24,730 nt of DNA. Source: a virus. Shown in pieces: positions 3,530 to 20,983 of the stretch (positions within the stretch are counted from its first letter, which is position 1; each line of letters begins with the position of its first letter). The notes beneath the pieces were generated by a model. The model saw only the letters and a program-made list of their open reading frames with translations. It was not told where the DNA came from and made no database searches. The translations under genes were made by a program, and so were the position numbers. The DNA lies in IMG/VR virus record IMGVR_UViG_3300042866_000724, positions 1-24,730 of that record; one strand, given 5' to 3'.

Positions 3530-4966
3530 CTACTGGGAGTATGGGTTCACGCGGGACCTCTTATCGTCCGCGTAGCCGTAGTCCCGGGGTGGTAGGGGGT
3601 CGAGCTGTACCCACCCAGAATCTCGCAGCACGCGGAGCGCCTGGGATAGGCTGTCAACGTAGTCGTCGTGCCCTCCGGACTCTGGGAAAGAGCACACCTG
3701 GCGCAAGAACCTGCTGGCCCACGCGGCGTACTCGCCGGGCTTCTCCGTGTCCTCGGGTATGTACACCTTACCCTTCGCGATCAGGGGCGCGACAATGTTC
3801 AGGCGCTGCACCTTGTCCGCCTTGCCAGGGTTGTACGCCCTCACCGGTATGTTGGCGCCTTGCAACTCTTGAACCAGGGAGATACCAGCGGACTTGTCCT
3901 CCATCAGGATCAGGTCTGCCTTCCTACCCTTTGCAAATGTCTGGTCCGAGCCGTACACCACCTCCTTAAAGTCGGCGACGACCTTCTTTCGCAGCTCGGG
4001 GTACGAGAGGTGCGTGTCCCACGCGTCCAATAGCATCAGGCACGTCCCAGCGTCAGGCCTCTCAAACACTCCCCACACCTCGCACGCGGTCGGGTCGTTG
4101 TGCGTCTTCTCCGATGTGGCGGGGTCGTAGCTCGCGATGACGTACTCCAGGGTCGGAGTCTCCTGTTTCGCGGGCCACATCTTGAACCACTTCCGCTTGA
4201 CGATCCCCGCGTCCTCGGGGTTAAGGATCTCCCCGTAGATCTCCTGCTTTCCAAGGTCTGTCCCCTCGTAGGTCTCCAGCTGCTTGAAGAACGTGGAGGA
4301 CAGGTTTACCTTGTTGTCGTAGGAGGAGGCGTTCACCACGTAGACCTCGCCCCCGATCTTGCCCTCGTTCAGGTCAACGATCAGCTCCTTGGGCTTGGGG
4401 GTGGTCGTCACGATCTGCTGAACCCGGGGTATCGCGGGGTCCTTCAGACGCATCGTGAACTGAACCTGGTCGTAGGCGTCGTCGATGTACTCGAACGCGC
4501 ACAGCTCGTCGAACCAACCCCCGTGGAACTGTTTGCCCCGGTACCGCTCCGGCTCCGACCCGGGTATACCCTGTATGATAGAGCCGTTGATTAGCGTGAT
4601 CTCCAGCATCTGCTTGTTGTAGTCCTTGATCAGCGAGTCGGGTATGATGTGCAACAGCCCGGAGTCACCCTCGAAGCACGTCGCCCGGATGTCGTTCGAC
4701 GTCGGAGCGGTCACCAACCAGCGAGTGTTCGGGTACTTCCACGCCCGGATCCCAATCCAGTGGCTCGCGGTGTGAGTTTTTCCAGATCCACGGCCGGCGA
4801 GCATGAGAAACGTGTCATAGTCGCCATCCTCGGGTTCCCTTTGGTGCGGCAGGGCCTCGATCTCCCACCGAACCTGCCAAAGCGCGGCGTCTAGCTGGTG
4901 CTTTGGCCAGTGTTTGTTGGTCTTCGCGAAGTTTGCGAGGATCTTCTCCTGTTCTTTGGTCAGCAT
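3530..4966 (-). CDS. terL: Terminase large subunit (TerL), ATPase plus nuclease
   Basis: This is the DNA-packaging motor and headful nuclease, 478 residues from the ATG at 4966. The Walker A motif AGRGSGKT is at residues 57-64. The Walker B acidic pair is in GGWFDEL (Asp153-Glu154), and the coupling motif is TTTPKP near residue 188. The RNase-H-like nuclease half has its first acid in SYDP (Asp281), a second in LILMEDKSAG and a C-terminal HDDYVDS. All key residues are present, so the protein looks active. A longer frame back to 5023 exists, but ATG 4966 overlaps the stop of the upstream Hint gene (ATGCTGA) and gives a normal N-terminus. The small terminase subunit is on the other strand at 22355. 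Confidence 0.93.
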   Translation of the reverse strand: MLTKEQEKILANFAKTNKHWPKHQLDAALWQVRWEIEALPHQREPEDGDYDTFLMLAGRGSGKTHTASHWIGIRAWKYPNTRWLVTAPTSNDIRATCFEGDSGLLHIIPDSLIKDYNKQMLEITLINGSIIQGIPGSEPERYRGKQFHGGWFDELCAFEYIDDAYDQVQFTMRLKDPAIPRVQQIVTTTPKPKELIVDLNEGKIGGEVYVVNASSYDNKVNLSSTFFKQLETYEGTDLGKQEIYGEILNPEDAGIVKRKWFKMWPAKQETPTLEYVIASYDPATSEKTHNDPTACEVWGVFERPDAGTCLMLLDAWDTHLSYPELRKKVVADFKEVVYGSDQTFAKGRKADLILMEDKSAGISLVQELQGANIPVRAYNPGKADKVQRLNIVAPLIAKGKVYIPEDTEKPGEYAAWASRFLRQVCSFPESGGHDDYVDSLSQALRVLRDSGWVQLDPLPPRDYGYADDKRSRVNPYSQ

Positions 4967-5931
4967 ACCGCTAAAAACCCCTCCTCGACCAAGAAAGGGC
5001 GCTCCGTTAGCACGTGCGCGCACTGTTTTGGCGTTATTTTGTTAACCTTCGACAAAAAACGATACAAATTGCTCGTCTTTTCCTTATTTTTGTAAAATTC
5101 CAGGGTGAAGTAACCCCTAGTCTCGTGCTTTGAGAGCTTGGAGCGGTACCCAAGCGACTCAACCAGACCCTGAAGCCTCCTTATACGGCCCCAGGAGTGC
5201 TCGGTTACCTGGACAAGCTCTTTCTTTGCGCCGTACCCGTCCAAAAAACCCTCGAGCAGCTGCTCCCTCTGCTCCGGGGACGCGCTCATGTAGCTAAACG
5301 GCACAGAGTCCGGGGCTCCCTCGCCATAAATCGAGAAGCTGGTGGCGAGCGGTGGCCGGAACTCCATCAGCGTGTCCCCGTTCTTGTGGCGGCGGGTTAC
5401 GATCGCGTAGCCGTGCTCCCTCGACCGGGCCCTCATCCGCTTGATGTCGTGCTTCTCACGCAGCCAGTGGCGCCCGGTTGGGCTGAGCGTCGCCAAGAAA
5501 ACGCCCACAACGTAGGGCGGCGCGGGTAGGTCCACCCACGAGTACTTAACCGGGGAGGTTATTGGTAGTGAGTACTCACGTCTGCCATCCTCACGGGCCA
5601 GAGCCTCACGGGCCAACTCGTGCGCGCTCTTCCTCTTGAGCGGTCGCTTCATGCACTTCCTCGCGCCCTTCTTGCCGCGGTTCTTCGCCCAGCTCCCGCG
5701 CCTGTCCCTCCAGGTCTTGTCCTGTAGCTCGAAGCTCATGTGCCGGTCACCCCTCACGCTAACCCCGTCGTGGAAGCTAGCCTCGTAGCACTCGGTGGGT
5801 ATGTAGAGCTGCACCCCCTTCACGGGCTGCGGGTTGCCCTCGACGTCGAAGACCACGTGCTTCGTGGTGAGAGCGTGCGCCCTCACCCAGCCATCGGTGG
5901 TCGGCACCGGTGTGTCAGAGGTCACGGCCAC
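4960..5931 (-). CDS. Free-standing intein-like Hint protein with LAGLIDADG-type region
   Basis: The 323-residue protein begins AVTSDTPVPTTDGW, which matches intein block A (normally C..DT.V.T..GW) with Ala in place of the catalytic Cys1. Block B is seen at DGVSVRGDRH (His64). A Cys48-Tyr-Glu stretch fits the Hint fold. Two degenerate LAGLIDADG-like helices are at about residues 139-153 (lacking the acidic residue) and 225-236 (LLEGFLDGYG, Asp231 kept). The C-terminus ends FLVEEGFLAVC and lacks the His-Asn needed for splicing. The start is GTG 5931 with GAGGAGGA five bases upstream. It overlaps TerL by a few bases, so it is translated as its own protein. Likely a homing endonuclease relic or autonomous derivative of a TerL intein; activity is uncertain. 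Confidence 0.72.
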   Translation of the reverse strand: MAVTSDTPVPTTDGWVRAHALTTKHVVFDVEGNPQPVKGVQLYIPTECYEASFHDGVSVRGDRHMSFELQDKTWRDRRGSWAKNRGKKGARKCMKRPLKRKSAHELAREALAREDGRREYSLPITSPVKYSWVDLPAPPYVVGVFLATLSPTGRHWLREKHDIKRMRARSREHGYAIVTRRHKNGDTLMEFRPPLATSFSIYGEGAPDSVPFSYMSASPEQREQLLEGFLDGYGAKKELVQVTEHSWGRIRRLQGLVESLGYRSKLSKHETRGYFTLEFYKNKEKTSNLYRFLSKVNKITPKQCAHVLTERPFLVEEGFLAVC

Positions 5932-6235: not shown

Positions 6236-6358
6236 CTGCACAGGTTGCACAGGTCGCACAGGTCTAAGTGCACCTACTCCTTTTCTTTTTCACTCATGAA
6301 GAAAAAAAGAGAATAGGTAAGTGGGTTTAGACCTGTGCGACCTGTGCAACCTGTGCAG
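6236..6358. repeat. Long iteron-bearing inverted repeat, copy 1 (IR1)
   Basis: The 32-bp arms at 6236-6267 and 6327-6358 are perfect reverse complements. Each arm contains three tandem 9-bp units of the form GCACAGGTY. The 59-base spacer starts GTGCACCTAC and has pyrimidine-rich then purine-rich halves that can pair imperfectly, so the RNA or single-stranded DNA could form one very long hairpin. A second element with the same arms and the same spacer length lies at 12530-12650. Candidate roles are iterons for a replication protein, a bidirectional terminator, or a recombination site. Confidence 0.8.
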
Positions 6359-6878: not shown

Positions 6879-6998
6879 GGGGGGCCAAGGGGTAGGTAGC
6901 CACCTCAGCACGAGGGCCACTGAGGCGCGATGCGCGCGCGACAGAGCCATCGAGGGGAGGGCGTGATAATGCCACCAAGGCCCCGGGCGCCGCCCACA

Positions 6999-7048
6999 TT
7001 TCACATCGTGAAAAGTCATGGAAAAAAACCAATAGGGTGATACACAAC
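6999..7048 (+). promoter_or_regulatory. Repeated leader element, copy 1, with five-codon micro-ORF
   Basis: It begins with the inverted repeat TTTCAC-ATC-GTGAAA and continues through GTCATGG, an A-tract and AATAGGGTGATACACAAC. The 41 bases 7008-7048 are identical to 7075-7115. Inside is the micro-ORF ATGGAAAAAAACCAATAG (Met-Glu-Lys-Asn-Gln-stop). No good -35/-10 pair is obvious, so promoter, operator or leader-RNA roles are all open. Confidence 0.55.
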
Positions 7049-7074
7049 ACAGGCGAGCCGCCCTATTCCGCATT

Positions 7075-7115
7075 GTGAAAAGTCATGGAAAAAAACCAAT
7101 AGGGTGATACACAAC
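7075..7115 (+). promoter_or_regulatory. Repeated leader element, copy 2
   Basis: Exact 41-base copy of 7008-7048, including the MEKNQ micro-ORF. Its left flank differs, so the TTTCAC arm is degenerate. It ends 15 bases before the first early gene and probably supplies its promoter or leader. Confidence 0.55.
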
Positions 7116-7130
7116 CATAGGAGCACCGCA

Positions 7131-7316
7131 ATGACAACACCGAAGTACATCTACACAGAGGCATACAGCCCGTCGTTGATGCAGACGCACTACCTAGCCA
7201 AGGTCAGTTTCCATCACTTTTGGCTGGAGACGTTCGACGATCTGACCCAGTTTTGGGATTGCGATCTGTACGACACCCGGATGACCGTGGCCTACCCGGT
7301 AGGGGTGAGAGCATGA
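7131..7316 (+). CDS. Hypothetical early protein (61 aa)
   Basis: First gene of the plus-strand early unit. ATG 7131 is preceded by AGGAGCACCGCA, the ribosome site shared by the neighbouring small genes. An in-frame upstream ATG at 7104 would add nine residues encoded by leader repeat sequence and is rejected. The product is rich in aromatic residues (Tyr, Phe, Trp, His) and acidic near the middle; no family is recognised. Its stop overlaps the next start (ATGA), so the two are coupled. Small proteins at this position are often host-takeover factors, but nothing here proves that. Confidence 0.65.
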   Translation: MTTPKYIYTEAYSPSLMQTHYLAKVSFHHFWLETFDDLTQFWDCDLYDTRMTVAYPVGVRA

Positions 7317-7585
7317 CAACACCGAAGACCATGAGCCAGCGACAGCGCAGGGCCGTCCAAGCATTCGCCAGCGACTGCCCGGGTCTAGGGATCCAACTGG
7401 AGTGGGCGTGCCTGCCAACGCCGGAGGTCTGGGCCCTACGGGTCCGGCAGATCCGCAAGGCCCGGGGCCTACTGGCGTGGGCGTACGAGCCCGCGCTTGG
7501 GAACTACGTGGTACTCACCACGGACCTGCGCCGGCTGAACGTGACCGGCGAGGAGGCCAAGGCGATAGACAATCAGCACATCTGA
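7313..7585 (+). CDS. Hypothetical early protein (90 aa); 3' end overlaps a ribozyme
   Basis: It starts at ATG 7313, overlapping the previous stop, with a weak AGGGGTGAG upstream. It is a basic protein with an Arg-rich N-terminal part and a helix-strand pattern; no family is recognised. The unusual feature is the 3' end. The last three codons and the TGA stop (7583-7585) lie inside stem I and the CUGACGA core of hammerhead ribozyme A, so a terminating ribosome would sit on the ribozyme. The long frame back to 7220 is a shadow of the previous gene. Confidence 0.65.
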   Translation: MTTPKTMSQRQRRAVQAFASDCPGLGIQLEWACLPTPEVWALRVRQIRKARGLLAWAYEPALGNYVVLTTDLRRLNVTGEEAKAIDNQHI

Positions 7586-7626
7586 CGATGGGGTGAGTCC
7601 CCGAAACCCCGCAAGGGGTCATGTGC
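7576..7626 (+). ncRNA. Hammerhead ribozyme A (type I)
   Basis: Stem I is GCACAU (7576-7581) with AUGUGC (7621-7626). The core is CUGACGA (7582-7588). Stem II is GGGG/CCCC around UGAGU (7590-7602), followed by GAA-A (7603-7606). Stem III is A-CCCC / GGGG-U with a GCAA loop (7606-7619). The cleavage position is C7620, and both ends leave through stem I, so it is type I. An extra U7589 sits between core and stem II (bulge or U-C mismatch), which may lower activity. Predicted products are an upstream RNA with a structured 3' end and a downstream message starting AUGUGCAUAAC. Confidence 0.85.
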
Positions 7627-7648
7627 ATAACACCATAGGAGCATCACC

Positions 7649-7831
7649 ATGACAAAAAGCCTCCCGCAACTAATCGACGCGTACGCGAACGCCCTAGCAG
7701 ACTACCGAGCCGGGGTGGCCTCCGGCATCGATGCCGAGAAACTCAAGTGCCTGAAACGGCTAATGAACCTAGCCGGATGGAAACTGAGAGACCTAGGCCT
7801 CGACGTTCAGTTCGACGAGACCGACATCTAA
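7649..7831 (+). CDS. Hypothetical early protein (60 aa)
   Basis: ATG 7649 follows the leader ATAACACCATAGGAGCATCACC left after ribozyme A. The product is predicted to be two or three amphipathic helices (LPQLIDAYANALADYRAGV, then KLKCLKRLMNLAGWKLRDLG) with an acidic tail. No family is recognised. The TAA stop ends two bases before stem I of ribozyme B, so the gene sits alone between two ribozymes and would become a single-gene message after cleavage. Confidence 0.65.
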   Translation: MTKSLPQLIDAYANALADYRAGVASGIDAEKLKCLKRLMNLAGWKLRDLGLDVQFDETDI

Positions 7832-7833
7832 CA

Positions 7834-7885
7834 GCACTACTGACGAGGCCTGATTGGCCGAAAACCGCGAGAGCGGTTCTAGTGC
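7834..7885 (+). ncRNA. Hammerhead ribozyme B (type I, covarying copy)
   Basis: Stem I is GCACUA (7834-7839) with UAGUGC (7880-7885). The core is CUGACGA (7840-7846). Stem II is GGCC/GGCC around UGAUU (7847-7859), then GAA (7860-7862). Stem III is AACCGC with GCGGUU and a GAGA loop (7863-7878). Cleavage would follow C7879. Stem I and stem III differ from the other copies on both strands while keeping every pair. That is direct evidence that the fold, not the sequence, is conserved. Confidence 0.93.
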
Positions 7886-7907
7886 ATAACACCATAGGAG
7901 CACCACA

Positions 7908-8330
7908 ATGAAAATAATCTACCCAGTGTCCCGGGGCGAGTCCAACGCCACGGAGCACAATGACTGCACCGTCCGCGCGCTGTCCAACGCCGCGAACTGG
8001 AAGTACCCGGAGGCGCACGCACTGCTGTCCAAGCACGGGCGCCGGTTCCGGCACGGGGCCGTCTTTTCAGTCTATTACAAGGCCTACGTCGAGGCGGGCG
8101 CCAGGTTGATCGGCGTCTACGGCAACACCCGGCGCGCGGTTGCCGCCGGGCGTATCGCCAACACCCAACAGCAGGCAGGGATCACGCTTAACTCGTTGAT
8201 GCCGCGCCTGAGATCCGGGCGGTACATCGTCCTGATCACCGGGCACGCGCTCGCGGTTGTCGACGGCAAGGTCATCGACGCCGGGGGCGTACGCGCCGGG
8301 TCCCACGTGTTCGCGCTGTTCAAGATCTAG
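7908..8330 (+). CDS. Putative papain-like cysteine peptidase (140 aa)
   Basis: The N-terminal NDCTVRALS (Cys20) and the C-terminal GRYIVLITGHALAVVDGKVID (His113, Asp124) have the order and spacing of a papain-fold Cys-His-Asp active site. This layout is known from small phage cysteine-peptidase-like proteins. It could cleave host or phage proteins, or act as a deamidase or transferase using the same triad; the substrate is unknown. The size fits a single compact domain with no signal peptide or membrane segment. ATG 7908 has AGGAGCACCACA upstream. The last base of its TAG stop is the first base of ribozyme C. Confidence 0.65.
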   Translation: MKIIYPVSRGESNATEHNDCTVRALSNAANWKYPEAHALLSKHGRRFRHGAVFSVYYKAYVEAGARLIGVYGNTRRAVAAGRIANTQQQAGITLNSLMPRLRSGRYIVLITGHALAVVDGKVIDAGGVRAGSHVFALFKI

Positions 8331-8380
8331 CACATCTGACGATGGGGTGAGTCCCCGAAACCCCGCGAGGGGTCATGTGC
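8330..8380 (+). ncRNA. Hammerhead ribozyme C (type I)
   Basis: Stem I is GCACAU (8330-8335) with AUGUGC (8375-8380), and the core is CUGACGA (8336-8342). Stem II is GGGG/CCCC around UGAGU with an extra U8343, as in copy A. GAA-A follows at 8357-8360. Stem III is A-CCCC / GGGG-U with a GCGA loop (8360-8373), and the cleavage position is C8374. It differs from copy A only in the stem III loop (GCGA instead of GCAA). Confidence 0.85.
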
Positions 8381-8400
8381 ATAACCATAGGAGCACCACA

Positions 8401-8649
8401 ATGAAAACTAACGTAGATGACTTTCACTTCTTCGCCTCCAGTATGTTCACATGGGCAACCACTAACGACACCCGTAACTTGCTGGATCTGCTCGATCTGT
8501 TCAAGAAAGAAGGCTATCCCTTCTCGCTGTTCAAGGTTCCGGGTGATTGGGACGCACATTACAGCATCGAGCACTATGCTCCGCAGGTCGATGGCGCAGA
8601 GTTACTTGGGACATATAACCCGAAGAAGCGCCAACGCAAGGTAGCCTAA
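8401..8649 (+). CDS. Hypothetical early protein (82 aa)
   Basis: ATG 8401 follows the ATAACCATAGGAGCACCACA leader downstream of ribozyme C. The frame is open further upstream, but that part only translates the leader and ribozyme and is rejected. The product has an aromatic N-terminus (DDFHFFASSMFTW), a helix (LLDLLDLFKKEG), a middle part with SIEHYAPQVDGAELLG, and a basic C-terminus. No family is recognised. It lies between ribozymes C and D; the stop is two bases before stem I of D. Confidence 0.65.
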   Translation: MKTNVDDFHFFASSMFTWATTNDTRNLLDLLDLFKKEGYPFSLFKVPGDWDAHYSIEHYAPQVDGAELLGTYNPKKRQRKVA

Positions 8650-8651
8650 CA

Positions 8652-8701
8652 GCACATCTGACGAGGCCTGAGTGGCCGAAACCCCGCGAGGGGTCATGTG
8701 C
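8652..8701 (+). ncRNA. Hammerhead ribozyme D (type I)
   Basis: Stem I is GCACAU (8652-8657) with AUGUGC (8696-8701), and the core is CUGACGA (8658-8664). Stem II is GGCC/GGCC around UGAGU (8665-8677), then GAA (8678-8680). Stem III is A-CCCC / GGGG-U with a GCGA loop (8681-8694), and cleavage would follow C8695. All core positions and stems are intact with no bulge. Stem II matches copy B while stems I and III match copy C, so copies appear to mix by recombination. Confidence 0.93.
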
Positions 8702-8721
8702 ATAATCACAGGAGCACCACA

Positions 8722-8943
8722 ATGAGCAGATACCTAAAAACGTCGACATCGATCGGCAAATTGGAGGCGATGCAGGCCAAGGCCGATCAGTTGGCGGCCC
8801 AGTACTCGACCTACGACGAGGAAACGTCTGACCTGATTTTCGGGATCAGCGCTTCCATCGAGTTAGCACTCGAGCGCTTACGTCAGGAGGAAGACGCCCG
8901 CAACGAGCGCGTGTCCAACCTACGCGACAAGTTCAAATTTTGA
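8722..8943 (+). CDS. Hypothetical helical early protein (73 aa)
   Basis: ATG 8722 follows the leader ATAATCACAGGAGCACCACA after ribozyme D. It is strongly helical with heptad-like spacing (IGKLEAMQAKADQLAAQ, IELALERLRQEEDARNERV) and probably forms a coiled coil or helical bundle. No family is recognised. The eight codons from 8698 are leader sequence, not protein. The gene is followed directly by leader element copy 3 instead of a fifth ribozyme. Confidence 0.65.
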   Translation: MSRYLKTSTSIGKLEAMQAKADQLAAQYSTYDEETSDLIFGISASIELALERLRQEEDARNERVSNLRDKFKF

Positions 8944-8985
8944 TTTCACATCGTGAAAAGTCATGGAAAAAAACCAATGTAGTAT
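8944..8985 (+). promoter_or_regulatory. Repeated leader element, copy 3
   Basis: The inverted repeat TTTCAC-ATC-GTGAAA (8944-8958) and the next 20 bases match copy 1 exactly, then diverge to TGTAGTATCAC. Here the micro-ORF stop is lost, so ATGGAAAAAAACCAA is in frame with the next gene. It lies directly after the last ribozyme cassette, which suggests a second early start site. Confidence 0.55.
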
Positions 8986-9007
8986 CACAAGATCAAAGGA
9001 GCATCAA

Positions 9008-9220
9008 ATGCAAAACAACACAGAACTAAATCAACTCTTCCTCGAACTGTATTCTCTCAACAAGGGGTGGTGCAAGGGCGGCGCTCACGTATCCCGAAAT
9101 TGGGCGGCGGCGAATCAGACCGTTGCCCGCCGGATCAAGGAGATACTTAAAGAACAGGGCACCGAAGTACCCAAGGAAAACGACGTAATCGACCAGTACA
9201 AACACAACCCAGCAGAATAG
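9008..9220 (+). CDS. Hypothetical early protein (70 aa)
   Basis: ATG 9008 has AAAGGAGCATCAA upstream and is preferred. The in-frame ATG at 8963 belongs to leader element copy 3 and lacks a ribosome site; using it would add 15 residues. The product has an N-terminal helix (LNQLFLELYSLNKGW), a Trp/Ser/Arg-rich loop and a second helix (TVARRIKEILKEQG), which might be a small DNA-binding fold. No family is recognised. Confidence 0.6.
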   Translation: MQNNTELNQLFLELYSLNKGWCKGGAHVSRNWAAANQTVARRIKEILKEQGTEVPKENDVIDQYKHNPAE

Positions 9221-9230
9221 GAGCATCACC

Positions 9231-9422
9231 ATGACGTACGAAGAGATCAAAGCAGAGCAGGCCCGGATCGAGGCAGAGTTCAACGCTCGCAAGGCACGCA
9301 ACGCCGCCGCACGCGCAGAGCGCGAGGCTAACACAAAGCCCATACCGTGGGTTGTCGTTGGCGCGATCGCGCCAATGTCCGACTACCACGAGAGCGTAGC
9401 GCGCGGATGGTCAACCGACTGA
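9231..9422 (+). CDS. Hypothetical helical early protein (63 aa)
   Basis: ATG 9231 has AGGAGCATCACC upstream. The first half is a long charged helix rich in Ala, Arg and Glu (EEIKAEQARIEAEF, NARKARNAAARAEREAN). The second half has a short hydrophobic stretch (PWVVVGAIAPM), too short and polar-flanked to be a sure membrane segment. No family is recognised. The stop is followed by the strong hairpin at 9432. Confidence 0.6.
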   Translation: MTYEEIKAEQARIEAEFNARKARNAAARAEREANTKPIPWVVVGAIAPMSDYHESVARGWSTD

Positions 9423-9431
9423 GAGTCTAGC

Positions 9432-9451
9432 GAGCAGGGTCCGCCCTGCTC
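9432..9451 (+). terminator. Strong intergenic hairpin, possible processing or attenuation site
   Basis: GAGCAGGG and CCCTGCTC form an eight-base perfect stem closed by TCCG. It is followed by AGTACACTTTC, without a good U-tract, so full intrinsic termination is doubtful. It lies between two early genes, where the ribozymes stood in the previous gaps, and may play the same 3'-end-protecting part. Confidence 0.45.
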
Positions 9452-9483
9452 AGTACACTTTCACCAACCAAAGGAGCATCACC

Positions 9484-9663
9484 ATGAGCACACTACGCGT
9501 CACAGTCGTATTTGAATTCAACAATGTCGAGCCCGGCACCGAGCGCGACGAGAGCATCGTAATGTCGATCACCGAGGCCTGCGAGACCATGCAGACCGGG
9601 TTCGACGCCAGCGCGTGCTGGGTGGACGACGCTGAATTTATCACAGCAGAGCAGGAGGCATAA
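9484..9663 (+). CDS. Hypothetical acidic early protein (59 aa)
   Basis: ATG 9484 has AAAGGAGCATCACC upstream, the standard early ribosome site. The product is acidic, starts with a beta strand (LRVTVVFEF) and continues with SIVMSITEACETM and a Trp/Asp-rich end. No family is recognised; the composition fits a small alpha-beta protein. It is followed two bases later by the next start. Confidence 0.6.
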   Translation: MSTLRVTVVFEFNNVEPGTERDESIVMSITEACETMQTGFDASACWVDDAEFITAEQEA

Positions 9664-9665
9664 CC

Positions 9666-9863
9666 ATGAAACTACGCAACAAATTACTATGCGAGGCGAC
9701 CAACGACGAGATCAAGCGGGTGGCCTTGTCGTATCGTGGCGGGTACGATCTGACCGACGAGGACTGCGAGGAGATCCGCAACCCGAACGGCCTTTTCCAC
9801 GCCCCCAAGGATGAGACCATCGCAGAGGCCATCGACGATTTTATTCGAGCATACGAGTGCTAG
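9666..9863 (+). CDS. Hypothetical early protein (65 aa)
   Basis: ATG 9666 follows GGAGGCATAACC, so the ribosome site lies within the end of the previous gene. The product is acidic, with LTDEDCEEIRNPNGLF in the middle and a C-terminal helix (ETIAEAIDDFIRAYE). No family is recognised. It ends 11 bases before the next start, and the next ribosome site (AGGAGG) overlaps its stop codon. Confidence 0.6.
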   Translation: MKLRNKLLCEATNDEIKRVALSYRGGYDLTDEDCEEIRNPNGLFHAPKDETIAEAIDDFIRAYEC

Positions 9864-9874
9864 GAGGCACAACC

Positions 9875-10066
9875 ATGATGAGCAACGTAGAACGGTTCCA
9901 GTACGTTAACTGGGCACTAGACAACTTCCCCGAGTTCGTGACAAGCCCGGACCAGTACCGGGCCTCGCAGGTGGCGTGGGAGGAGCGCAAGAAGGCGCGC
10001 GTGTTCGACGCCGAGTACCTGATGTCACGCATGAGGTCCGAGGACCTCGTATTTCCAAACGAATAA
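9875..10066 (+). CDS. Hypothetical early protein (63 aa)
   Basis: Two ATGs in a row (9875 and 9878) follow TAGGAGGCACAACC; the first is taken. A TTG at 9857 in frame lies before the ribosome site and is rejected. The product is rich in aromatic and charged residues (FQYVNWALDNFPEFV, then an Arg/Lys/Glu helix), probably helical. No family is recognised. Confidence 0.6.
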   Translation: MMSNVERFQYVNWALDNFPEFVTSPDQYRASQVAWEERKKARVFDAEYLMSRMRSEDLVFPNE

Positions 10067-10077
10067 GGAGCAAAACC

Positions 10078-10266
10078 ATGAACCTATACCAACAAATTAT
10101 CGCCAAGGCTACAGGGATTGACGACGTGAACAAGATCAACATGATCGAGCAGTACATGCGGCACGTTTACTTCAACTCCACGCTGTCTTGGCAGACCCAA
10201 GAGCAACTCAACAAGGCCGCGCGCAGTTCAGCCGCAGAGTTAGAGTCTATCGAATGGCAATTCTAA
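10078..10266 (+). CDS. Hypothetical helical early protein (62 aa)
   Basis: ATG 10078 has AAGGAGCAAAACC upstream. The product appears to be three short helices (LYQQIIAKATG, VNKINMIEQYMRHVYF, TQEQLNKAARSSAAELESIEW), a size and pattern that could fit a small helical bundle or HTH. No family is recognised. The long frame upstream to 9976 is a shadow of the previous gene. Confidence 0.6.
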   Translation: MNLYQQIIAKATGIDDVNKINMIEQYMRHVYFNSTLSWQTQEQLNKAARSSAAELESIEWQF

Positions 10267-10283
10267 AAACCAAGGAGACTAAA

Positions 10284-10481
10284 ATGGGAAAATGGGCAGT
10301 ACTACTCGGAGACGAGAACGTGTGGACCGTCGACGGCGAGCCGGAGACGTTTAACACCATGCAAGAGGCGATGGCCGCGCTCGACGCGTTCATCGAGGAG
10401 GAAGAGGAGGAGGTCCGACGAGGCAACTTGGAGAGCGCGTGCGACCCCGAGGACTACCGGATCGAGATGGTGAACGTATGA
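10284..10481 (+). CDS. Hypothetical very acidic early protein (65 aa)
   Basis: ATG 10284 has AAGGAGACTAAA upstream. The N-terminal half looks like beta strands (KWAVLLGDENVWTVDGEPETF), then a helix with a run of Glu (FIEEEEEEV). The high negative charge resembles DNA-mimic or host-inhibitor proteins in phage early regions, but this is only a resemblance. The stop overlaps the start of the next 27-residue gene (ATGA). Confidence 0.6.
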   Translation: MGKWAVLLGDENVWTVDGEPETFNTMQEAMAALDAFIEEEEEEVRRGNLESACDPEDYRIEMVNV

Positions 10482-10561
10482 GCACACTCGTTGAACTATC
10501 ACCCCTGATCGTAGCCATCGTATTGGTGGTGGCGATATTCAGGCCGTGGGACTTACACTAA
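10478..10561 (+). CDS. Tiny single-span membrane peptide (27 aa)
   Basis: ATG 10478 overlaps the previous stop (ATGA), so it is probably read by coupled ribosomes. The peptide is a short polar N-terminus, one hydrophobic segment (LIVAIVLVVAIF) and a short RPWDLH tail. It could be a membrane-acting regulator or host-effector peptide; function unknown. It is supported by position and coupling, since very short frames can also occur by chance. Confidence 0.5.
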   Translation: MSTLVELSPLIVAIVLVVAIFRPWDLH

Positions 10562-10573
10562 AGGAGCAATAAA

Positions 10574-10855
10574 ATGGAAAACCAAGGAACCAAAATCGAC
10601 ATCGCGCGCTCGCGCAAACTCGCGGGTGACATCCTCGCGTCCAACGGCAAGTTCGTCACGGTGACATTTCTCAAAAAGGATGGCACCGTACGCAAGATGA
10701 ACTGCCGCATGGGCGTGACAAAGCACCTGAAAGGTGGCGAGTCCACGCTCGACGCCGAGCAGTACATCACCGTGTTCGACGTTGCCAAGGGCGCATACCG
10801 CGCCATCAACCGCGACACGATCATCGAGATCAAGGGAGTGGATCAGCCATGCTAG
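10574..10855 (+). CDS. WYL_2 / SH3-fold family phage protein (93 aa)
   Basis: The central part, FVTVTFLKKDGTVRKMNCRMGVTKHLKGG followed by YITVFDVAKGAYRAINRDTI, matches a family of small phage proteins known as WYL_2 or DUF2693. They are predicted to form an Sm/SH3-like beta barrel that may bind nucleic acid or a ligand; the function is not settled. The length is normal. ATG 10574 has AAGGAGCAATAAA upstream, and the stop overlaps the next start by seven bases. Confidence 0.75.
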   Translation: MENQGTKIDIARSRKLAGDILASNGKFVTVTFLKKDGTVRKMNCRMGVTKHLKGGESTLDAEQYITVFDVAKGAYRAINRDTIIEIKGVDQPC

Positions 10856-10989
10856 CAATTTTCGGAATCCTACTCTCCCTAGTCTCGTTCCAAGCGGCGA
10901 GCGTGTTTGGCTTGTCATCCTCGTCCGTCGGTGGTATCCTCCTCGGGGTTACCATGATCGGACTGGGATTATACTTTGGCAAACGATAA
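10849..10989 (+). CDS. Small two-span membrane protein (46 aa)
   Basis: ATG 10849 lies inside the end of the WYL_2 gene. Two hydrophobic segments (LAIFGILLSLVSFQAA and GGILLGVTMIGLGLYF) are joined by a Ser-rich turn, and the C-terminus is basic (GKR). The topology would allow a small holin-like or host-membrane effector, but lysis genes are not seen nearby and no family is recognised. The sigma factor gene begins inside its 3' end. Confidence 0.55.
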   Translation: MLAIFGILLSLVSFQAASVFGLSSSSVGGILLGVTMIGLGLYFGKR

Positions 10990-11548
10990 ATCAGCAATCT
11001 CGGGCTACGTACGTGGCCTGTACACCTACCAACCGCTGGCCCTCGACGAGGAGCGTAAACTGTCCGGGATGATACAGGCAGGAGACAGACCCTCGCTCGA
11101 GCGCTTGGTCAAGCACAACCTCAGATTCGTCGTATCCGTCGTGAAGACAACCCCCGAGTGGCGCTACAGCGTGGTGCCGCACGAGGACCTGATTGCGATG
11201 GGCAACGAGGCGCTGTTCAAGGCGGCGAGGAAGTGGGTCCCCAAGAACAACGCACGGTTCGCGACGTACGCGAAGCCGTTCATCATACGAGGGGTCCGTA
11301 GGGCAATTGACAACGAGTGGGGGCTGATCCGACTGCCCGTGAATGTATCCGAAGAGATACGCCGGGTGAAGTACGCGGAGAGGTCCCTGATGCAACGACT
11401 CGGGCGCGAGCCAACCAACGAGGAGGTCGCGCAAGAGGCCAAGACCCACCCGGACAGGGTGGTACAACTGAACAACCTGATCGCCCGGGGGCCGATATCC
11501 CTCGAGTCGTTCAGCCCTGAAAACTTTCAAGAGGAAGACGAAGAATGA
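10976..11548 (+). CDS. Sigma-70-like factor lacking region 4 (190 aa)
   Basis: Residues 41-121 are a clear sigma region 2: LVKHNLRFVVSVV, DLIAMGNEALFKAARKW, FATYAKPFIIRGVRRAIDNEWGLIRLP. That covers core-RNA-polymerase binding and -10 recognition. Residues 123-165 match region 3 (RRVKYAERSLMQRLGREPTNEEVAQE). The protein then ends with an acidic tail and has no region 4, so it should not read a -35 element alone. T4 gp55 is a known phage precedent for this kind of reduced factor. The start is taken as TTG 10976, overlapping the previous gene; no ATG is available upstream of region 2. It probably redirects host polymerase to later phage promoters. A region-4-like protein is encoded at 20964. Confidence 0.85.
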   Translation: MANDKSAISGYVRGLYTYQPLALDEERKLSGMIQAGDRPSLERLVKHNLRFVVSVVKTTPEWRYSVVPHEDLIAMGNEALFKAARKWVPKNNARFATYAKPFIIRGVRRAIDNEWGLIRLPVNVSEEIRRVKYAERSLMQRLGREPTNEEVAQEAKTHPDRVVQLNNLIARGPISLESFSPENFQEEDEE

Positions 11549-12529: not shown

Positions 12530-12650
12530 TGCACAGGTTGCACAGGTCGCACAGGTCTAAGTGCACCTACCTATTCTTTTTTTCTTCTTCTGTTAAAATA
12601 AAAGAAGAAGTAAGTGTGTTTAGACCTGTGCGACCTGTGCAACCTGTGCA
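12530..12650. repeat. Long iteron-bearing inverted repeat, copy 2 (IR2)
   Basis: The 31-bp perfect arms at 12530-12560 and 12620-12650 are identical to the arms of the element at 6236-6358, with the same three GCACAGGTY units per arm. The spacer is again exactly 59 bases but has diverged. It contains its own hairpin, CTTCTTCT with AGAAGAAG, where copy 1 has a different pyrimidine/purine pairing. It lies just upstream of the primase gene. The preserved length and pairing with a changed sequence suggest the folded structure matters. Confidence 0.8.
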
Positions 12651-12675: not shown

Positions 12676-14976
12676 ATGGAAAAACCAACAAAAATTGACG
12701 TCGACTTCGAGCGGATACCGTTCGAGTTAAAGAGGATCCCACGCTGGGTTATGTGGAGATTCGTGGAGATCGGCGAGGGCGAGAGCCGGCGCTGGTCCAA
12801 ACTGCCCGTGCAGTCGAACATGCACGCGGCGAGTAGTACCAACCCCGGGACGTGGACGGACTTCCTCTCAGCCCAGAACGCGTACCAGACCGGCAAGTTC
12901 GACGGGGTGGGGTTCGTCTTCGACGGCACCGACGGCCTCGTGGGAGTCGACCTGGATGACTGCTACGCTGAGGGGCAGTTTACGAGCCCTGAGGCGGCCC
13001 AAATTGCCTCGGAGGTAGACGGGTACATGGAGGTCTCCCCGAGCGGCACAGGCGTCAAGATATTCACGCTGGCGGCCATCCAATCCGCGCACGTAGACCA
13101 CGAGAAGGGTCTGGAGATCTACCCACGCGGGCGATACTTTACGGTGACGGGCCAACACATCAAGGGGGCCATACCCGAGTCCCCAATTGATCTGTCCCCA
13201 TTTATACCGGAGAGGTCCGTCCGCGTGACGGGTGACTCGTTCGCGGACTACTCGCCGCCCGTGGCAGAGTACGACGTCGCGCGTGTAGAGTCCGAGCTGC
13301 TCGCGCACTTGGACGCCAACTGTGGCTACTCGGAGTGGCTCCGGGTTGGCATGGCCCTACACCACCAGTTCAACGGCGACGTGGAGGCCTGCGAGGCGTG
13401 GGACCGCTGGTCGTCGACCACCACCGGGAGCTACCACCCCGGCGAGTGCGCCCGGAAGTGGGACAGCTTCACCAAGGGCAAGGGATCGACACTGCGCTCG
13501 ATCATATTCGAGGTCAACCAGGTAAAGAAGGGCGAGGCGCTCGCCAGGGGTGAGATCGTGCTAGACCCCGCGCCTCTGAACCACGCGGCGGAGTACCTCG
13601 AGTCGGAGCACACGAACGAGGAGGGTACGACTCTCGTGCACTACGCGGCGGAGTTCTTCAAGTACACGGGCAACTGCTACGAGCCCGTCGAGGACGCGAC
13701 AATCCGCTCGAAGATGTACAACTTCTTGAACAAGTGCAACAAGACAGACCGCCGCGGGAACCTGATACCGTTCGCCCCGACGCCGCCTCTGGTGAGCGCC
13801 GCGATCGACGCGTTGCAGGCCACGGTCCACCTACCACAGAGCGCGCACTCGCACCCGCCGGTGTGGCTCGAGGGGTTCGGCAAGAATAAGCCCGAGGCCT
13901 CAAAGCTGATCAGCCTGAAGAACGGGCTCTTCCACCTCGAGGACTCGGTGCTCCTGCCGCACACGCTCGGGTTCTTCACGCTGAACAGTTTGCCGTTCGA
14001 GTACGACCCGGAGGCCAAGTGCCCGGTGTGGGAGGGCTTCCTCGAGCAGCTGTGGGGGCACGACAGCGAGTCGGTGGACACGTTGCAGGAGATCTTCGGG
14101 TACATACTATCGGGCGAGACCGACCAGCAGAAGTTCTTTAACATCATCGGACCCCGCCGAAGTGGCAAGGGTACGATCAACAAGGTGCTCGTGGACCTGC
14201 TAGGTCAGCACAACACGGTCGCGCCGGAATTGGGAGAGTTATGTGACACATTCGGACTACAACCATGGCTTGGCAAGCTACTTGCATCGTTTACGGACGC
14301 GCGTGCGCCGGAGAGGAATCGCTCTGCTGTTGTTTCTCAGCTTCTGCGTATTGTTGGTGGCGATACCGTAACCGTTAACCGCAAGAACCGCGAGGCTTGG
14401 AACGGGTACCTGCCGACACGTATCGTGATCTACTCGAACGAGGTCATGCAGCTCACCGAGAACAGCAACGCGCTCACGGGCCGGATGATCGTGCTCAAGA
14501 TGACTAACTCGTTCTACGGCCGCGAGGATACACAGCTATCTTCCAAGCTGAAGGCCGAGCTCTCGGGCATATTCAACTGGAGCATGGAGGGCCTGCGGCG
14601 TCGCAAGGCGCGGGGTGGTAAGTTCGTGCAGCCGGCGTCGGGCACGGAGCTCTTGCACGTGATGGAGGAGCTCTCGAACCCGCTGGGGACGTTCATCGAG
14701 GACACGCTGGTTCTCGACGACAGGTCTAGCATCAGCAAGGACGACCTGTACCATGTCTTCAAACGGTGGGCCACGGCTCGCGGGATACACCCGGGCACGG
14801 ACCTGACATTCAAGCGCCAGTTCTTGGCGGCGACGAGTGACAAGCCGATACGGATCACGCAGACGAGCAGCGGCGAGTCAAGGGTTCGCGTATACCAAGG
14901 GATACGATTCCAGGAGCGCGCCCAGCAGTACGTGGACAGCGTTAACAACTCTCTCATGAGCGAGGACTTTTTATGA
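12676..14976 (+). CDS. PrimPol / PriCT-2 / D5-type SF3 helicase (766 aa)
   Basis: This is the main replication protein. The N-terminal primase-polymerase has the metal-binding VGVDLDD (Asp92, Asp94), the SPSGTGVK loop (121-128) and EIYPRGRYFTVTG (147-159). A PriCT-2-like linker spans about 200-275 (WLRVGMALHHQF ... CARKWDSF). The C-terminal D5/SF3 helicase has Walker A GPRRSGKGT at 492-500, then LLASFTDARAPERNR and PTRIVIYSNE. The architecture matches self-priming phage replicases such as that of phage NrS-1. The ribosome site is weak (GGAACGACC); the sequence around the ATG resembles the repeated leader element. Codons 14221-14400 prefer A/T at third positions, unlike the rest. Confidence 0.9.
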   Translation: MEKPTKIDVDFERIPFELKRIPRWVMWRFVEIGEGESRRWSKLPVQSNMHAASSTNPGTWTDFLSAQNAYQTGKFDGVGFVFDGTDGLVGVDLDDCYAEGQFTSPEAAQIASEVDGYMEVSPSGTGVKIFTLAAIQSAHVDHEKGLEIYPRGRYFTVTGQHIKGAIPESPIDLSPFIPERSVRVTGDSFADYSPPVAEYDVARVESELLAHLDANCGYSEWLRVGMALHHQFNGDVEACEAWDRWSSTTTGSYHPGECARKWDSFTKGKGSTLRSIIFEVNQVKKGEALARGEIVLDPAPLNHAAEYLESEHTNEEGTTLVHYAAEFFKYTGNCYEPVEDATIRSKMYNFLNKCNKTDRRGNLIPFAPTPPLVSAAIDALQATVHLPQSAHSHPPVWLEGFGKNKPEASKLISLKNGLFHLEDSVLLPHTLGFFTLNSLPFEYDPEAKCPVWEGFLEQLWGHDSESVDTLQEIFGYILSGETDQQKFFNIIGPRRSGKGTINKVLVDLLGQHNTVAPELGELCDTFGLQPWLGKLLASFTDARAPERNRSAVVSQLLRIVGGDTVTVNRKNREAWNGYLPTRIVIYSNEVMQLTENSNALTGRMIVLKMTNSFYGREDTQLSSKLKAELSGIFNWSMEGLRRRKARGGKFVQPASGTELLHVMEELSNPLGTFIEDTLVLDDRSSISKDDLYHVFKRWATARGIHPGTDLTFKRQFLAATSDKPIRITQTSSGESRVRVYQGIRFQERAQQYVDSVNNSLMSEDFL

Positions 14977-15347
14977 TAATCGGAATAGGCTCAGACATTG
15001 TGAGCATCGATCACGTGGGCAACTGCTACAAGAAACAATCCTGGGCGTTCGTGCACAGGATCTTGGGCAAGCTCGAGCTCGACTACTTCGCGCAGATCTC
15101 CGACAACCGCGCAATGTCGGTGAGCTACCTGGCTCGCCGGTTCGCGGCGAAGGAGGCCACGCTGAAGGCGCTGGGCACGGGCATCACCCCGGAGATGGAC
15201 CTGAGAGACGTCCAGATACTGAACGACTCCAAGGGCAAGCCCGAGCTGCACATAGAAAAGCCCGGCTTGTTTCCGCACCGCGCGCACGTTACAATTACGG
15301 ACAATAACCGCGACGTTGTCGCGTTCGTCCTTATCGAATCAAACTAA
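14973..15347 (+). CDS. acpS: Holo-[acyl-carrier-protein] synthase (AcpS)
   Basis: AcpS moves the 4'-phosphopantetheine arm from coenzyme A to a serine of acyl carrier protein. The 124-residue length is that of bacterial AcpS. The hallmark IIGIGSDIV (Asp8, magnesium ligand) opens the protein, and RFAAKEATLKALGTGI (Glu61, second metal ligand) is in the middle; both are intact. ATG 14973 overlaps the primase stop (ATGA), so it is co-translated with replication genes. The likely partner is the phage acyl carrier protein at 19578, 4.2 kb downstream on the same strand. It could also charge host ACP. The alternative, a host gene picked up as cargo, is less likely given the tight coupling. Confidence 0.92.
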   Translation: MIIGIGSDIVSIDHVGNCYKKQSWAFVHRILGKLELDYFAQISDNRAMSVSYLARRFAAKEATLKALGTGITPEMDLRDVQILNDSKGKPELHIEKPGLFPHRAHVTITDNNRDVVAFVLIESN

Positions 15348-18404: not shown

Positions 18405-19578
18405 GCGCGTGGCCGAGTCTGTGTGGGCCCAGGAGTGCCAGAAGTGGGACCACCTCAAAGACCTGCGCGTGATCAAGATCATGGGATCTCAGCGCGAGCG
18501 ACTAACCGCGCTGCACCAGTTTAACTGTGACGTGTTCATCATCAACGTCGAGAACGTGCCATGGCTCGTCGACAACTGGCTCTCTGGTCTCTTTGAGAAT
18601 TTGATCGTGGACGAGAGCTCGCGATTCAAGGACCCGAGCACGAAGCGTTTCAAGGCGATCAAGAAGGTGCTCAACGAGTTCAAGCGCAGGCTGATCCTAA
18701 CCGGCACGCCAACGCCGCAGGGCATGGGCGACCTTTGGTCCCAGGTAGGCATCTTGGACCGCGGCGAGCGGCTCGGTAAGACCCTCACCGCGTTCCGTGA
18801 CACGTACATGTACGCCGCCGAGCGGAACCGGCACACGAACGTCGTGTACAAGTGGGCCGTGAGACCGGGCATGGACAGCCAGATCAGGGACAGGGTCTCG
18901 GACATCTGCTTCAGCCTGCGCGCGGAGGACTACCTGACACTGCCGCCCCTGACTAACTTGTACCATACATGTACGATATCGTCGGAGGTCATGGCTAAGT
19001 ACAAACAACTTCGTAAAGAGCTGGTTACAGAGATCGACGGCAAGGAGGTCACCGCGGTCACCGCCGCGGCGCTCGCCAACAAGCTCCTGCAGTTCACGAG
19101 CGGCACGCTCTACACGGAGGAGGGCGAGGCGCAGAGCTCTGAGGAGAAGATCGAGTTCTTGGAGTCTTTGATCGAGGAGAACCCGCACCCGACGCTGGTC
19201 TTCTACCACTACAAGACCGCGCTCAAGAAGCTCAAGGAGCGCTTCCCCGAGGCCCAGGAGCTCTCGGACGACAACCTGGACATGTGGCGCGCGGGCAAGG
19301 TCAAGATCATGCTCGCGCACCCTCAGTCTGGGGGCATCGGGCTGAACCTACAGTGCAACGAGGGGCAGATCGCCCAGGTTGTATGGTACGACCTACCCTG
19401 GAGCTCCGAGAACTACATCCAGGCCAACGCCAGGGTGTACAGGCAGGGCCAGGAGAAGCCCGTGATCATCCACCACATACTGCTGGGTGGGACGATCGAC
19501 GAGCAGGTGGTGAAGGTGCTCGAGGGTAAGATCAGCGCCCAGGAGGCGCTCATGAACGACTTGAAGATGGAGGGGTGA
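18238..19578 (+). CDS. SNF2-type superfamily 2 helicase (446 aa)
   Basis: An ATP-driven DNA translocase. Walker A is MEPGLGKT (28-35), motif II is VDESS (Asp125, Glu126), motif III is LTGTPTP (154-160). The C-terminal RecA domain carries QSGGIGLNLQ and motif VI NARVYRQGQ near 405-413. The compact two-domain form is typical of phage SNF2 helicases used in replication or recombination. ATG 18238 has AAAGGAAG upstream and is out of frame with the overlapping HNH tail. Its TGA overlaps the ACP start (TGATG), so helicase, ACP and ketoacyl synthase form one coupled block. Confidence 0.9.
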   Translation: MLSRTNLHPYQERLIRLAGRVPHMGLFMEPGLGKTVTALSIIKENSSGRTLVIAPKRVAESVWAQECQKWDHLKDLRVIKIMGSQRERLTALHQFNCDVFIINVENVPWLVDNWLSGLFENLIVDESSRFKDPSTKRFKAIKKVLNEFKRRLILTGTPTPQGMGDLWSQVGILDRGERLGKTLTAFRDTYMYAAERNRHTNVVYKWAVRPGMDSQIRDRVSDICFSLRAEDYLTLPPLTNLYHTCTISSEVMAKYKQLRKELVTEIDGKEVTAVTAAALANKLLQFTSGTLYTEEGEAQSSEEKIEFLESLIEENPHPTLVFYHYKTALKKLKERFPEAQELSDDNLDMWRAGKVKIMLAHPQSGGIGLNLQCNEGQIAQVVWYDLPWSSENYIQANARVYRQGQEKPVIIHHILLGGTIDEQVVKVLEGKISAQEALMNDLKMEG

Positions 19579-19859
19579 TGGACAGGGTACAACTATTCAA
19601 CGAGATCGTACGAGCCTCCCGGGCTATCGGGGTGCCGAGCACGGACGCGACCAGCCTGGACCAGAAGCTGTCCGAGGTAAACCTTGACAGCCTTGACACG
19701 TTGTTAGTAAGCATTTACTATTGTGACATCTACGGGATCTCGGAGGAGCAGGCCAAGAAGTTACAGCCCAAGACGCTCGCCGAGATCTACGAGTTTATCG
19801 ACCAGAACAAGACGAGAGAGCCGAAGACCATGGAGGAGGCGCTGAAGAAAATACGATGA
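19578..19859 (+). CDS. acpP: Acyl carrier protein (93 aa)
   Basis: The VNLDSLDTLL stretch carries the phosphopantetheine-accepting serine (Ser38 from this start) in the DSLD/E motif of acyl carrier proteins. Around it are the usual N-terminal helix and the downstream KTLAEIYEFIDQ helix. It holds growing acyl chains as thioesters once activated by AcpS. ATG 19578 is preferred over GTG 19575 because GGAGGGG is better spaced for it. It overlaps the helicase stop (TGATG), and its own stop overlaps the ketoacyl synthase start (ATGA). It is slightly longer than bacterial AcpP, with a charged tail after the domain. Confidence 0.88.
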   Translation: MDRVQLFNEIVRASRAIGVPSTDATSLDQKLSEVNLDSLDTLLVSIYYCDIYGISEEQAKKLQPKTLAEIYEFIDQNKTREPKTMEEALKKIR

Positions 19860-20983
19860 GGATATACCTGACAAAGTACAGCACGCTAAGCACCGAGGAT
19901 CTACACCTCGTGGACGATCACGCATACCCGCAGCGGGCGCACTTCTTCCCGGAGCTGCTAAAGGCGACGAAGTCCGGCCTGTTCTACACGCCACAGCGCG
20001 CGGTGGAGCGCGTGGTCACGCCGGAGATGGTGGGGTACATCAGGGGCAACCCAGTCCCCGGCAAGACGGGGTTCATACTCGCGGGGGGCTCCCAATCCTG
20101 GAACTCCGGGGGAGTGCCCGTGGACGAGAGGTACTTCGACAACTCCCTGGCGTACGCGTACCGGATGGAGATCCTCACCGTGACGAACATCTTCGGCTCG
20201 CGGATCGCATCGCAGATCGGTGCCACGGACTACACCGCGACGGACGCCAGCACGTGCGCGTCTAGCCTTAAGGTTCTCATGGACGTTCGTCACCTGATCA
20301 ACCTGTACGGGTTCGACCGCGTGATAGTCCTCGGCTTTGAGGACACCATAAAGAACCAGCTCCTCACCTTCTTCGGATCGTCCGGTACCACACTCACGAA
20401 AGAAGACGACGACCGCGGAGCCAAGCCCTCATCCTTCGACAGCGTCAACCGTGGGTTCTACCTGGGGCAGGGTGCGGTGCTGGCCGTGTTCGAGTCGGAC
20501 AGGGCGCTCAAGGATAACCCCCAGGCAGAGCTCCTGGGGGCCTACACGGCCTCGGAGCACAACGCCAACCCCATAGGCCAGCTCGAGGACGGGCAGGGCT
20601 ACACGAGGGCTATACTGGGCGCCTTGGGGGATCGTAGCCCATCGGAGGTGGCGCTGATAAAAACACACGGCACCGGGACCGGGATGAACAACAAGTCAGA
20701 GAGGGCCGCTATCGAGGGTCTCTTCGATGACTTCATCGCCACATCGTACAAGCCACGCATCGGGCACACCATGGGCGCGAGCGGGTTGTTGGAGACATGT
20801 CTGCTGTTGGACGGCATAAAAAAGGGAGAGATACCGGAGATAAAGAACAGAACAGAGCGAGACACAAGATTTATATCAGAGCCCCAACCCGTTCCGAGGG
20901 GGCTCATGCTCTCGCTCGCGGCTGGCATGGGGAATGTTTTTTCAGCCGCATTATTTAACTACCATGATCATCAAAAAATATAA
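19856..20983 (+). CDS. Beta-ketoacyl-ACP synthase (KAS I/II type, 375 aa)
   Basis: Thiolase-fold condensing enzyme. Cys134 lies in TDASTCASSL, His271 in KTHGTGTGMN, and Lys299 and His304 in KPRIGHTMGASGLLE. The Cys-His-His set and the Lys-His spacing of five match the elongating FabF/FabB type, not FabH (Cys-His-Asn). It would extend acyl chains with malonyl-ACP, releasing carbon dioxide. It is shorter than FabF (about 410), lacks the usual VVTGxG start, and replaces the GFGG gatekeeper loop with GMGN, so substrate range may differ. It is translated by coupling after ACP. No ketoreductase, dehydratase, acyltransferase or thioesterase is seen in the window. Confidence 0.9.
   Translation: MRIYLTKYSTLSTEDLHLVDDHAYPQRAHFFPELLKATKSGLFYTPQRAVERVVTPEMVGYIRGNPVPGKTGFILAGGSQSWNSGGVPVDERYFDNSLAYAYRMEILTVTNIFGSRIASQIGATDYTATDASTCASSLKVLMDVRHLINLYGFDRVIVLGFEDTIKNQLLTFFGSSGTTLTKEDDDRGAKPSSFDSVNRGFYLGQGAVLAVFESDRALKDNPQAELLGAYTASEHNANPIGQLEDGQGYTRAILGALGDRSPSEVALIKTHGTGTGMNNKSERAAIEGLFDDFIATSYKPRIGHTMGASGLLETCLLLDGIKKGEIPEIKNRTERDTRFISEPQPVPRGLMLSLAAGMGNVFSAALFNYHDHQKI

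Follow-up and report, generated by a model that had tools for sequence, protein, structure and literature searches.

Type I hammerhead ribozymes in series between single early genes of an environmental phage, with signs of gene exchange at the ribozymes

The DNA analysed here, referred to as the window, is a 24,730-base IMG/VR virus record, and all coordinates refer to the whole window. Its left part carries structural genes on the - strand, with the gene for the terminase large subunit at 3530-5023 (- strand), and from about 7100 small early genes follow on the + strand. The frame before the terminase gene (4960-5931, - strand) has no Pfam match and a putative intein-like look (AVTSDTPVPTTDGWVRAH). 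The early unit opens on the + strand with a gene for a 61-residue protein (7131..7316), followed on the same strand by genes for proteins of 90 (7313..7585), 60 (7649..7831), 140 (7908..8330) and 82 residues (8401..8649), all of unknown function, and by a gene for a 73-residue protein with a weak ZapB-like match (8722..8943). Each of the four gaps between the last five of these genes contains one hammerhead ribozyme on the + strand: hammerhead 1 at 7576..7626, hammerhead 2 at 7834..7885, hammerhead 3 at 8330..8380 and hammerhead 4 at 8652..8701. Hammerhead 1 includes in its CUGA core the TGA stop codon (7583-7585) of the 90-residue protein gene, and a leader containing AGGAG (7627..7648, + strand) separates it from the following ATG. 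Near-identical leaders follow copies 2-4 (7886-7907, 8381-8400 and 8702-8721), so that the ATGs are found 26-28 nt downstream of the predicted cuts. The gene between hammerheads 1 and 2 is missing from this place in the closest relative, contig L091. The 140-residue protein encoded between hammerheads 2 and 3 belongs to phrog_3754 and has homologues in Limnohabitans phage DC31 and Curvibacter phage P26059A, and its gene adjoins hammerheads in most relatives. It contains an NDC motif and later a GHA motif, giving the impression of a papain-like cysteine peptidase, and has no Pfam match.

The unit carrying all four ribozymes is bracketed by copies of a promoter- or operator-like repeat at 6998/7065 and 8943; the copy at 6998..7034 (+ strand) reads TTTCACATCGTGAAAAGTCATGGAAAAAAACCAAT, and its role as promoter is putative. 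A protein that resembles sigma-70 factors and has their regions 2 and 3 (PF04542, PF04539) is encoded at 10976-11548 and perhaps reads these repeats. A second repeated junction element, a GAGCAGGG-TCCG-CCCTGCTC hairpin followed by a ribosome-binding leader, is located at 9417-9487 and recurs in the relatives L091 (7140-7209 and 7393-7443) and L107 (8885-8952 and 9136-9204); it may be the non-ribozyme counterpart of the hammerhead joints. At either end of the early region stands a long inverted repeat (6238-6354 and 12531-12649) whose arms contain three GCACAGGTY units each and whose loop is A/T-rich; the two are possibly two-way terminators or replication sites. The top Rfam matches of the window, to plant miRNA models whose cut-offs they miss, fall on these inverted repeats and are false. 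Further to the right the phage carries genes of fatty-acid or polyketide type, encoding a holo-ACP synthase-type protein (14973-15347, PF01648) and a beta-ketoacyl synthase (19856-20983, PF00109/PF02801), the latter directly preceded by a small ACP-like frame (19575-19859) that has no Pfam match.

A strict descriptor (CUGANGA, stem II, GAAA, stem III, a U-H cleavage position and stem I) applied to both strands of the whole window identifies four type I hammerheads in total, with C3 at 7582, 7840, 8336 and 8658, every one of them on the + strand and none on the - strand; 300 dinucleotide-preserving shuffles of the window, likewise scanned on both strands, gave no descriptor match. All four copies contain the complete type I core (C3 U4 G5 A6 N7 G8 A9, G12 A13 A14, A15.1-U16.1, H17). 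When folded alone, each adopts as minimum-energy structure three helices around the CUGACGA/GAAA core with stem I open (z -2.0 to -4.0), a result that applies to the isolated elements, as stem I of copies 2-4 is not always kept in the minimum-energy structure of longer stretches. Hammerheads 1 and 3 differ by a single base, and both have one U inserted between A9 and stem II (at 7589 in hammerhead 1). In hammerhead 2 all three stems differ from those of copy 1 through paired changes. Descriptor, shuffles, folds and the covariance model described below thus confirm the original prediction of four complete type I hammerheads in four consecutive gene gaps, and the first bases after the predicted cleavage, when recomputed, are the ones it had given, namely 7621, 7880, 8375 and 8696. 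The CUGACGA core that it had read is present in every copy, to which the extra U after A9 in copies 1 and 3 has to be added, and the UC cleavage position also stands, being GUC in copies 1, 3 and 4 and UUC in copy 2. Its distance of about 20 bases from hammerhead to ribosome-binding site had to be corrected, as the Shine-Dalgarno AGGAG after copy 1 starts about 10 nt past the end of stem I and about 16 nt past the cut. Taken together, the identification of the four elements as type I hammerheads in series that separate single genes is strongly supported.

A covariance model (R1) was derived from 32 hammerheads on other contigs, excluding the window and its closest relative, and recovered the four sites alone when the window was searched (60.7-75.6 bits, E-values 2.4e-18 to 2e-23). 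An Rfam search had been proposed along with the original prediction as a way of checking it. When the window and a short region were scanned with Rfam, and likewise in family searches, no match reached threshold, the nearest hammerhead hits being to RF03152 with 20.5 and 18.5 bits at a cut-off of 56.3. The gathering cut-off of RF00163 (Hammerhead_1, 34 bits) was not reached by the window copies either, and the best score with this model in ten related or similar records was 33.7 bits. Since the independent model detects all four copies with E-values below 1e-17, this false negative reflects a limit of the Rfam models and not of the sequence. The window copies have the catalytic core and type I topology in common with RF00163 and with RF03152 (RAGATH-1 hammerhead), yet score below the cut-off of both. 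A common phage form of the hammerhead therefore escapes the Rfam hammerhead models, and counts of phage ribozyme arrays are probably too low.

How widespread is this form? A search with the terminase gene yielded 80 viral contigs, and a scan of these, for which no RNA seed was used, detected 56 hammerheads, at most five per contig and all on the early-gene strand. Two DNA patterns then matched 47 and 62 viral stretches, and the total came to 162 distinct placed hammerheads; a first loose pattern had returned three contigs with complete hammerheads in none. Seven or eight hammerheads are found in each of the single contigs L127, L142 and L149, the densest array seen being that of the 43-kb contig L149 with eight matches within 2.9 kb (8207-11079 in record G015). 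Neither of the two seed patterns had a match among bacteria and archaea, searched with one genome per species for 84,980 species, suggesting that these phages are probably rarely or never integrated, and an integrated prophage origin was rejected on this ground. Among annotated phages blastn with hammerhead 2 gave no match, and no hammerheads were detected in the two phage records closest by terminase or in the stretches around the homologues of the 140-residue protein gene in phages DC31 and P26059A.

The window and the terminase-found relatives contribute 41 distinct copies. All 16 base pairs are intact in each of these (634 of 634 cells paired), and 13 of the 16 have changed on both sides. 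Cells with a double change number 121, as compared to a mean of 37 after shuffling and at most 12 in controls with slid partners. Only the inner pairs are demanded by the descriptor. Two outer pairs of stem I, pair four of stem II, and pairs five and six of stem III were left free and are likewise formed in all 41 copies. Moreover, the form has a uniform anatomy. Stem I consists of 6 bp flanked by A on either side in 159 of the 162 copies, and the A/A flanks recur in 42 of the 44 copies that no search pattern caught; loop II reads UNANU in nearly all 162, and the cleavage base is C in 140 and A in 21 of them. The constant loop II together with the A-flanked stem I suggests, as judged from sequence, a contact between the stem II loop and the stem I region. 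In a model search that tolerated core changes (73 loci), the core was intact in every complete real match, amounting to 94 distinct sequences, a count partly biased by loci that had been fetched with core-containing patterns and unaffected for the terminase-fetched loci.

The nucleotide inserted after A9 is found in 66 copies and is U every time, with a scanner that accepted any base; 59 of these copies match a pattern in which the U is fixed and 7 do not. CChMVd and other natural hammerheads have an extra nucleotide after A9 as in copies 1 and 3, and De la Pena and Flores reportedly found in 2001 that a U at this place is harmless and can speed cleavage. Because the insertion is tolerated in known hammerheads, we expect by analogy that copies 1 and 3 are active despite it. 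The CChMVd-type hammerheads belong to viroid-type RNAs, whereas here the extra U recurs across dozens of phage copies.

The position of the ribozymes relative to the genes is similarly uniform. Downstream of 153 of 156 placed hammerheads lies a frame of 40 or more codons that begins with ATG, at a median distance of 27 nt past the cut (middle half 22-32), and in 151 of 156 an upstream frame ends beside the ribozyme. An ATG is found within 60 nt of 143 of the 156 hammerheads (92%) as compared to 967 of 3240 random positions (30%). In 33 of the placed copies, window copy 1 included, the stop codon TGA is the UGA of the core. In L057, L098 and L125 the last hammerhead stands immediately before the next unit's promoter-like repeat, so that it would form a 3' end there.

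Gene order near the ribozymes varies between close relatives. Contig L091, the full contig of L004, has a terminase 99% alike with that of the window and shares with it the blocks 7110-7652 and 7832-8384 at 93-96% identity, between which the window has an extra gene and one hammerhead (7649-7831 plus ribozyme); the blocks end in leader, ribozyme, or the ATG and first codons. Over 13 genomes, ribozyme-leader modules account for 9.4% of the compared sequence and 29.5% of the ends of homology blocks, other intergenic sequence for 24.9% and 29.5%, and genes for 65.7% and 41%. Gene adjacency was conserved in 6 of 111 comparisons across ribozyme junctions and in 119 of 436 across other junctions, a test weakened by the relatedness of the genomes, simple gene calls and the natural variability of the region. 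For related genomes and a variable region, such cassette statistics do not separate cause from hitch-hiking. In addition, L107 lacks the window's gene between copies 3 and 4 and has a single hybrid hammerhead at that place (7655-7704 of L107), with GGCC in its 5' half and CCCC in its 3' half, leaving only two pairs in stem II. The order of these halves is consistent with a parent in which the 140-residue protein gene is followed by a GGCC ribozyme, as in L096, and not with the window itself. A second hybrid ribozyme, in L179, has one stem III pair broken, and from their sequences both hybrids look like scars of recombination within ribozymes. Concerted evolution was also considered and not adopted, as ribozyme identities at orthologous junctions (0.80) and within a genome (0.84) are too close for such a claim. 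Evidence for cassette exchange at hammerhead ribozymes was not found in the papers that were searched.

What could such a series of ribozymes do for the phage? Structure, covariation, position, orientation and core conservation, breakpoint clustering at the joints and the hybrid ribozymes are the observations from which we infer cleavage in the cell, the chemistry of the ends and a benefit from insulation. With high probability, the predicted hammerheads are working ribozymes that cut the early transcript after each small gene into single-gene messages with defined ends. Transcription would start at about 7065-7130, and each hammerhead would cleave co-transcriptionally after its gene. Just past the stop codon, two hairpins with a terminal 2',3'-cyclic phosphate would form the end of the upstream mRNA. 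The downstream mRNA would begin with a 5'-OH and a 26-28 nt leader containing the Shine-Dalgarno site before the ATG, turning a multi-gene unit into single-gene messages. Unmasking of the ribosome-binding site by cleavage was rejected as a general purpose, since the computed accessibility changes inconsistently upon cutting; a direct translational benefit is thus not seen. Each cut creates a 5'-OH and a new 3' end, and effects of message ends on decay can go in either direction, so that the hammerheads could also be built-in timers that lower early-gene expression through decay from these ends instead of making stable messages. We regard this as very unlikely, as the 3' side retains two stable hairpins, the 5' side a full ribosome-binding leader, and a start site follows nearly every copy. 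Three genes are flanked on both sides by co-oriented hammerheads, by which the right ends would form for a gene between two hammerheads to be excised and closed into a circular or spliced RNA, through reverse hammerhead ligation or the host ligase RtcB. However, many ribozyme-flanked blocks in relatives contain several genes, some genes adjoin a ribozyme at just one end, and such RNAs were sought in comparable clusters by Perreault et al. and none were found (PMC3088659), making this reading very unlikely.

The repeats could also be kept chiefly as DNA recombination joints for the small genes, with ribozyme activity incidental or decayed. The preferred ends of homology blocks at ribozyme-leader modules, the adjacency counts (6/111 across modules against 119/436 elsewhere) and the hybrid ribozymes would all be expected. 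Joints, however, need neither a hammerhead core nor paired changes in three stems, and here the core is whole in every complete copy and the stems stay paired as their sequence changes; we therefore give this explanation, too, very little weight. More probably, the array does both, cutting one long message and marking the joints at which genes are exchanged. With a separate leader and 3' end former for each gene, a gene could be gained, lost or replaced while those beside it remain undisturbed, and the recurring ribozyme-leader segment would supply the homology for such exchange. Tentatively, it could be imagined that a large phage group has a gene-cassette system in which a cassette comprises one small gene, its own leader and a self-cutting 3' end, and in which recombination within the ribozyme adds, removes or swaps genes and usually leaves a functional ribozyme behind; modularity would thus be enforced by ribozyme function. 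Cassette joints and ribozymes would then serve each other. Since orthologous genes occur with different ribozymes or none, and natural hybrids exist, the processing and cassette ideas are both directly testable.

Why bacteria and phages have hammerheads was described as an open question in a 2017 review (PMC6155905). The arrangement in the window is not new in kind. The original prediction had described hammerheads as known singly in bacteria and phages and the series as a distinct RNA-processing design, and both statements are wrong in view of Perreault et al., who described in 2011 clustered hammerheads flanking single genes in prophages, namely a triple at ardA of Agrobacterium tumefaciens and clusters in Azorhizobium caulinodans and Clostridium scindens, and proposed mRNA processing (PMC3088659). 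Three of these prophage clusters cleaved in vitro and one in E. coli (PMC3088659). In the window, too, co-oriented hammerheads flank single genes of a phage, and the prophage clusters, co-transcribed hammerheads around single genes or short blocks, were given the same interpretation, with cleavage demonstrated there. In VIPR RNA arrays (PMC13142463) hammerheads are also spaced along the array, albeit between small guide-type RNAs, whereas here they separate protein-coding genes. As compared to the prophage clusters, the arrays described here comprise four to about eight ribozymes of a uniform sub-architecture, belong to phage contigs whose ribozyme patterns had no match in the bacterial genomes searched, and come with evidence for exchange at the ribozymes. 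New are thus environmental phages that form a large group and whose arrays reach about eight hammerheads, a fixed hammerhead sub-architecture below the Rfam cut-off, and evidence, including two hybrid ribozymes, that ribozyme-leader segments are exchange joints of single-gene cassettes.
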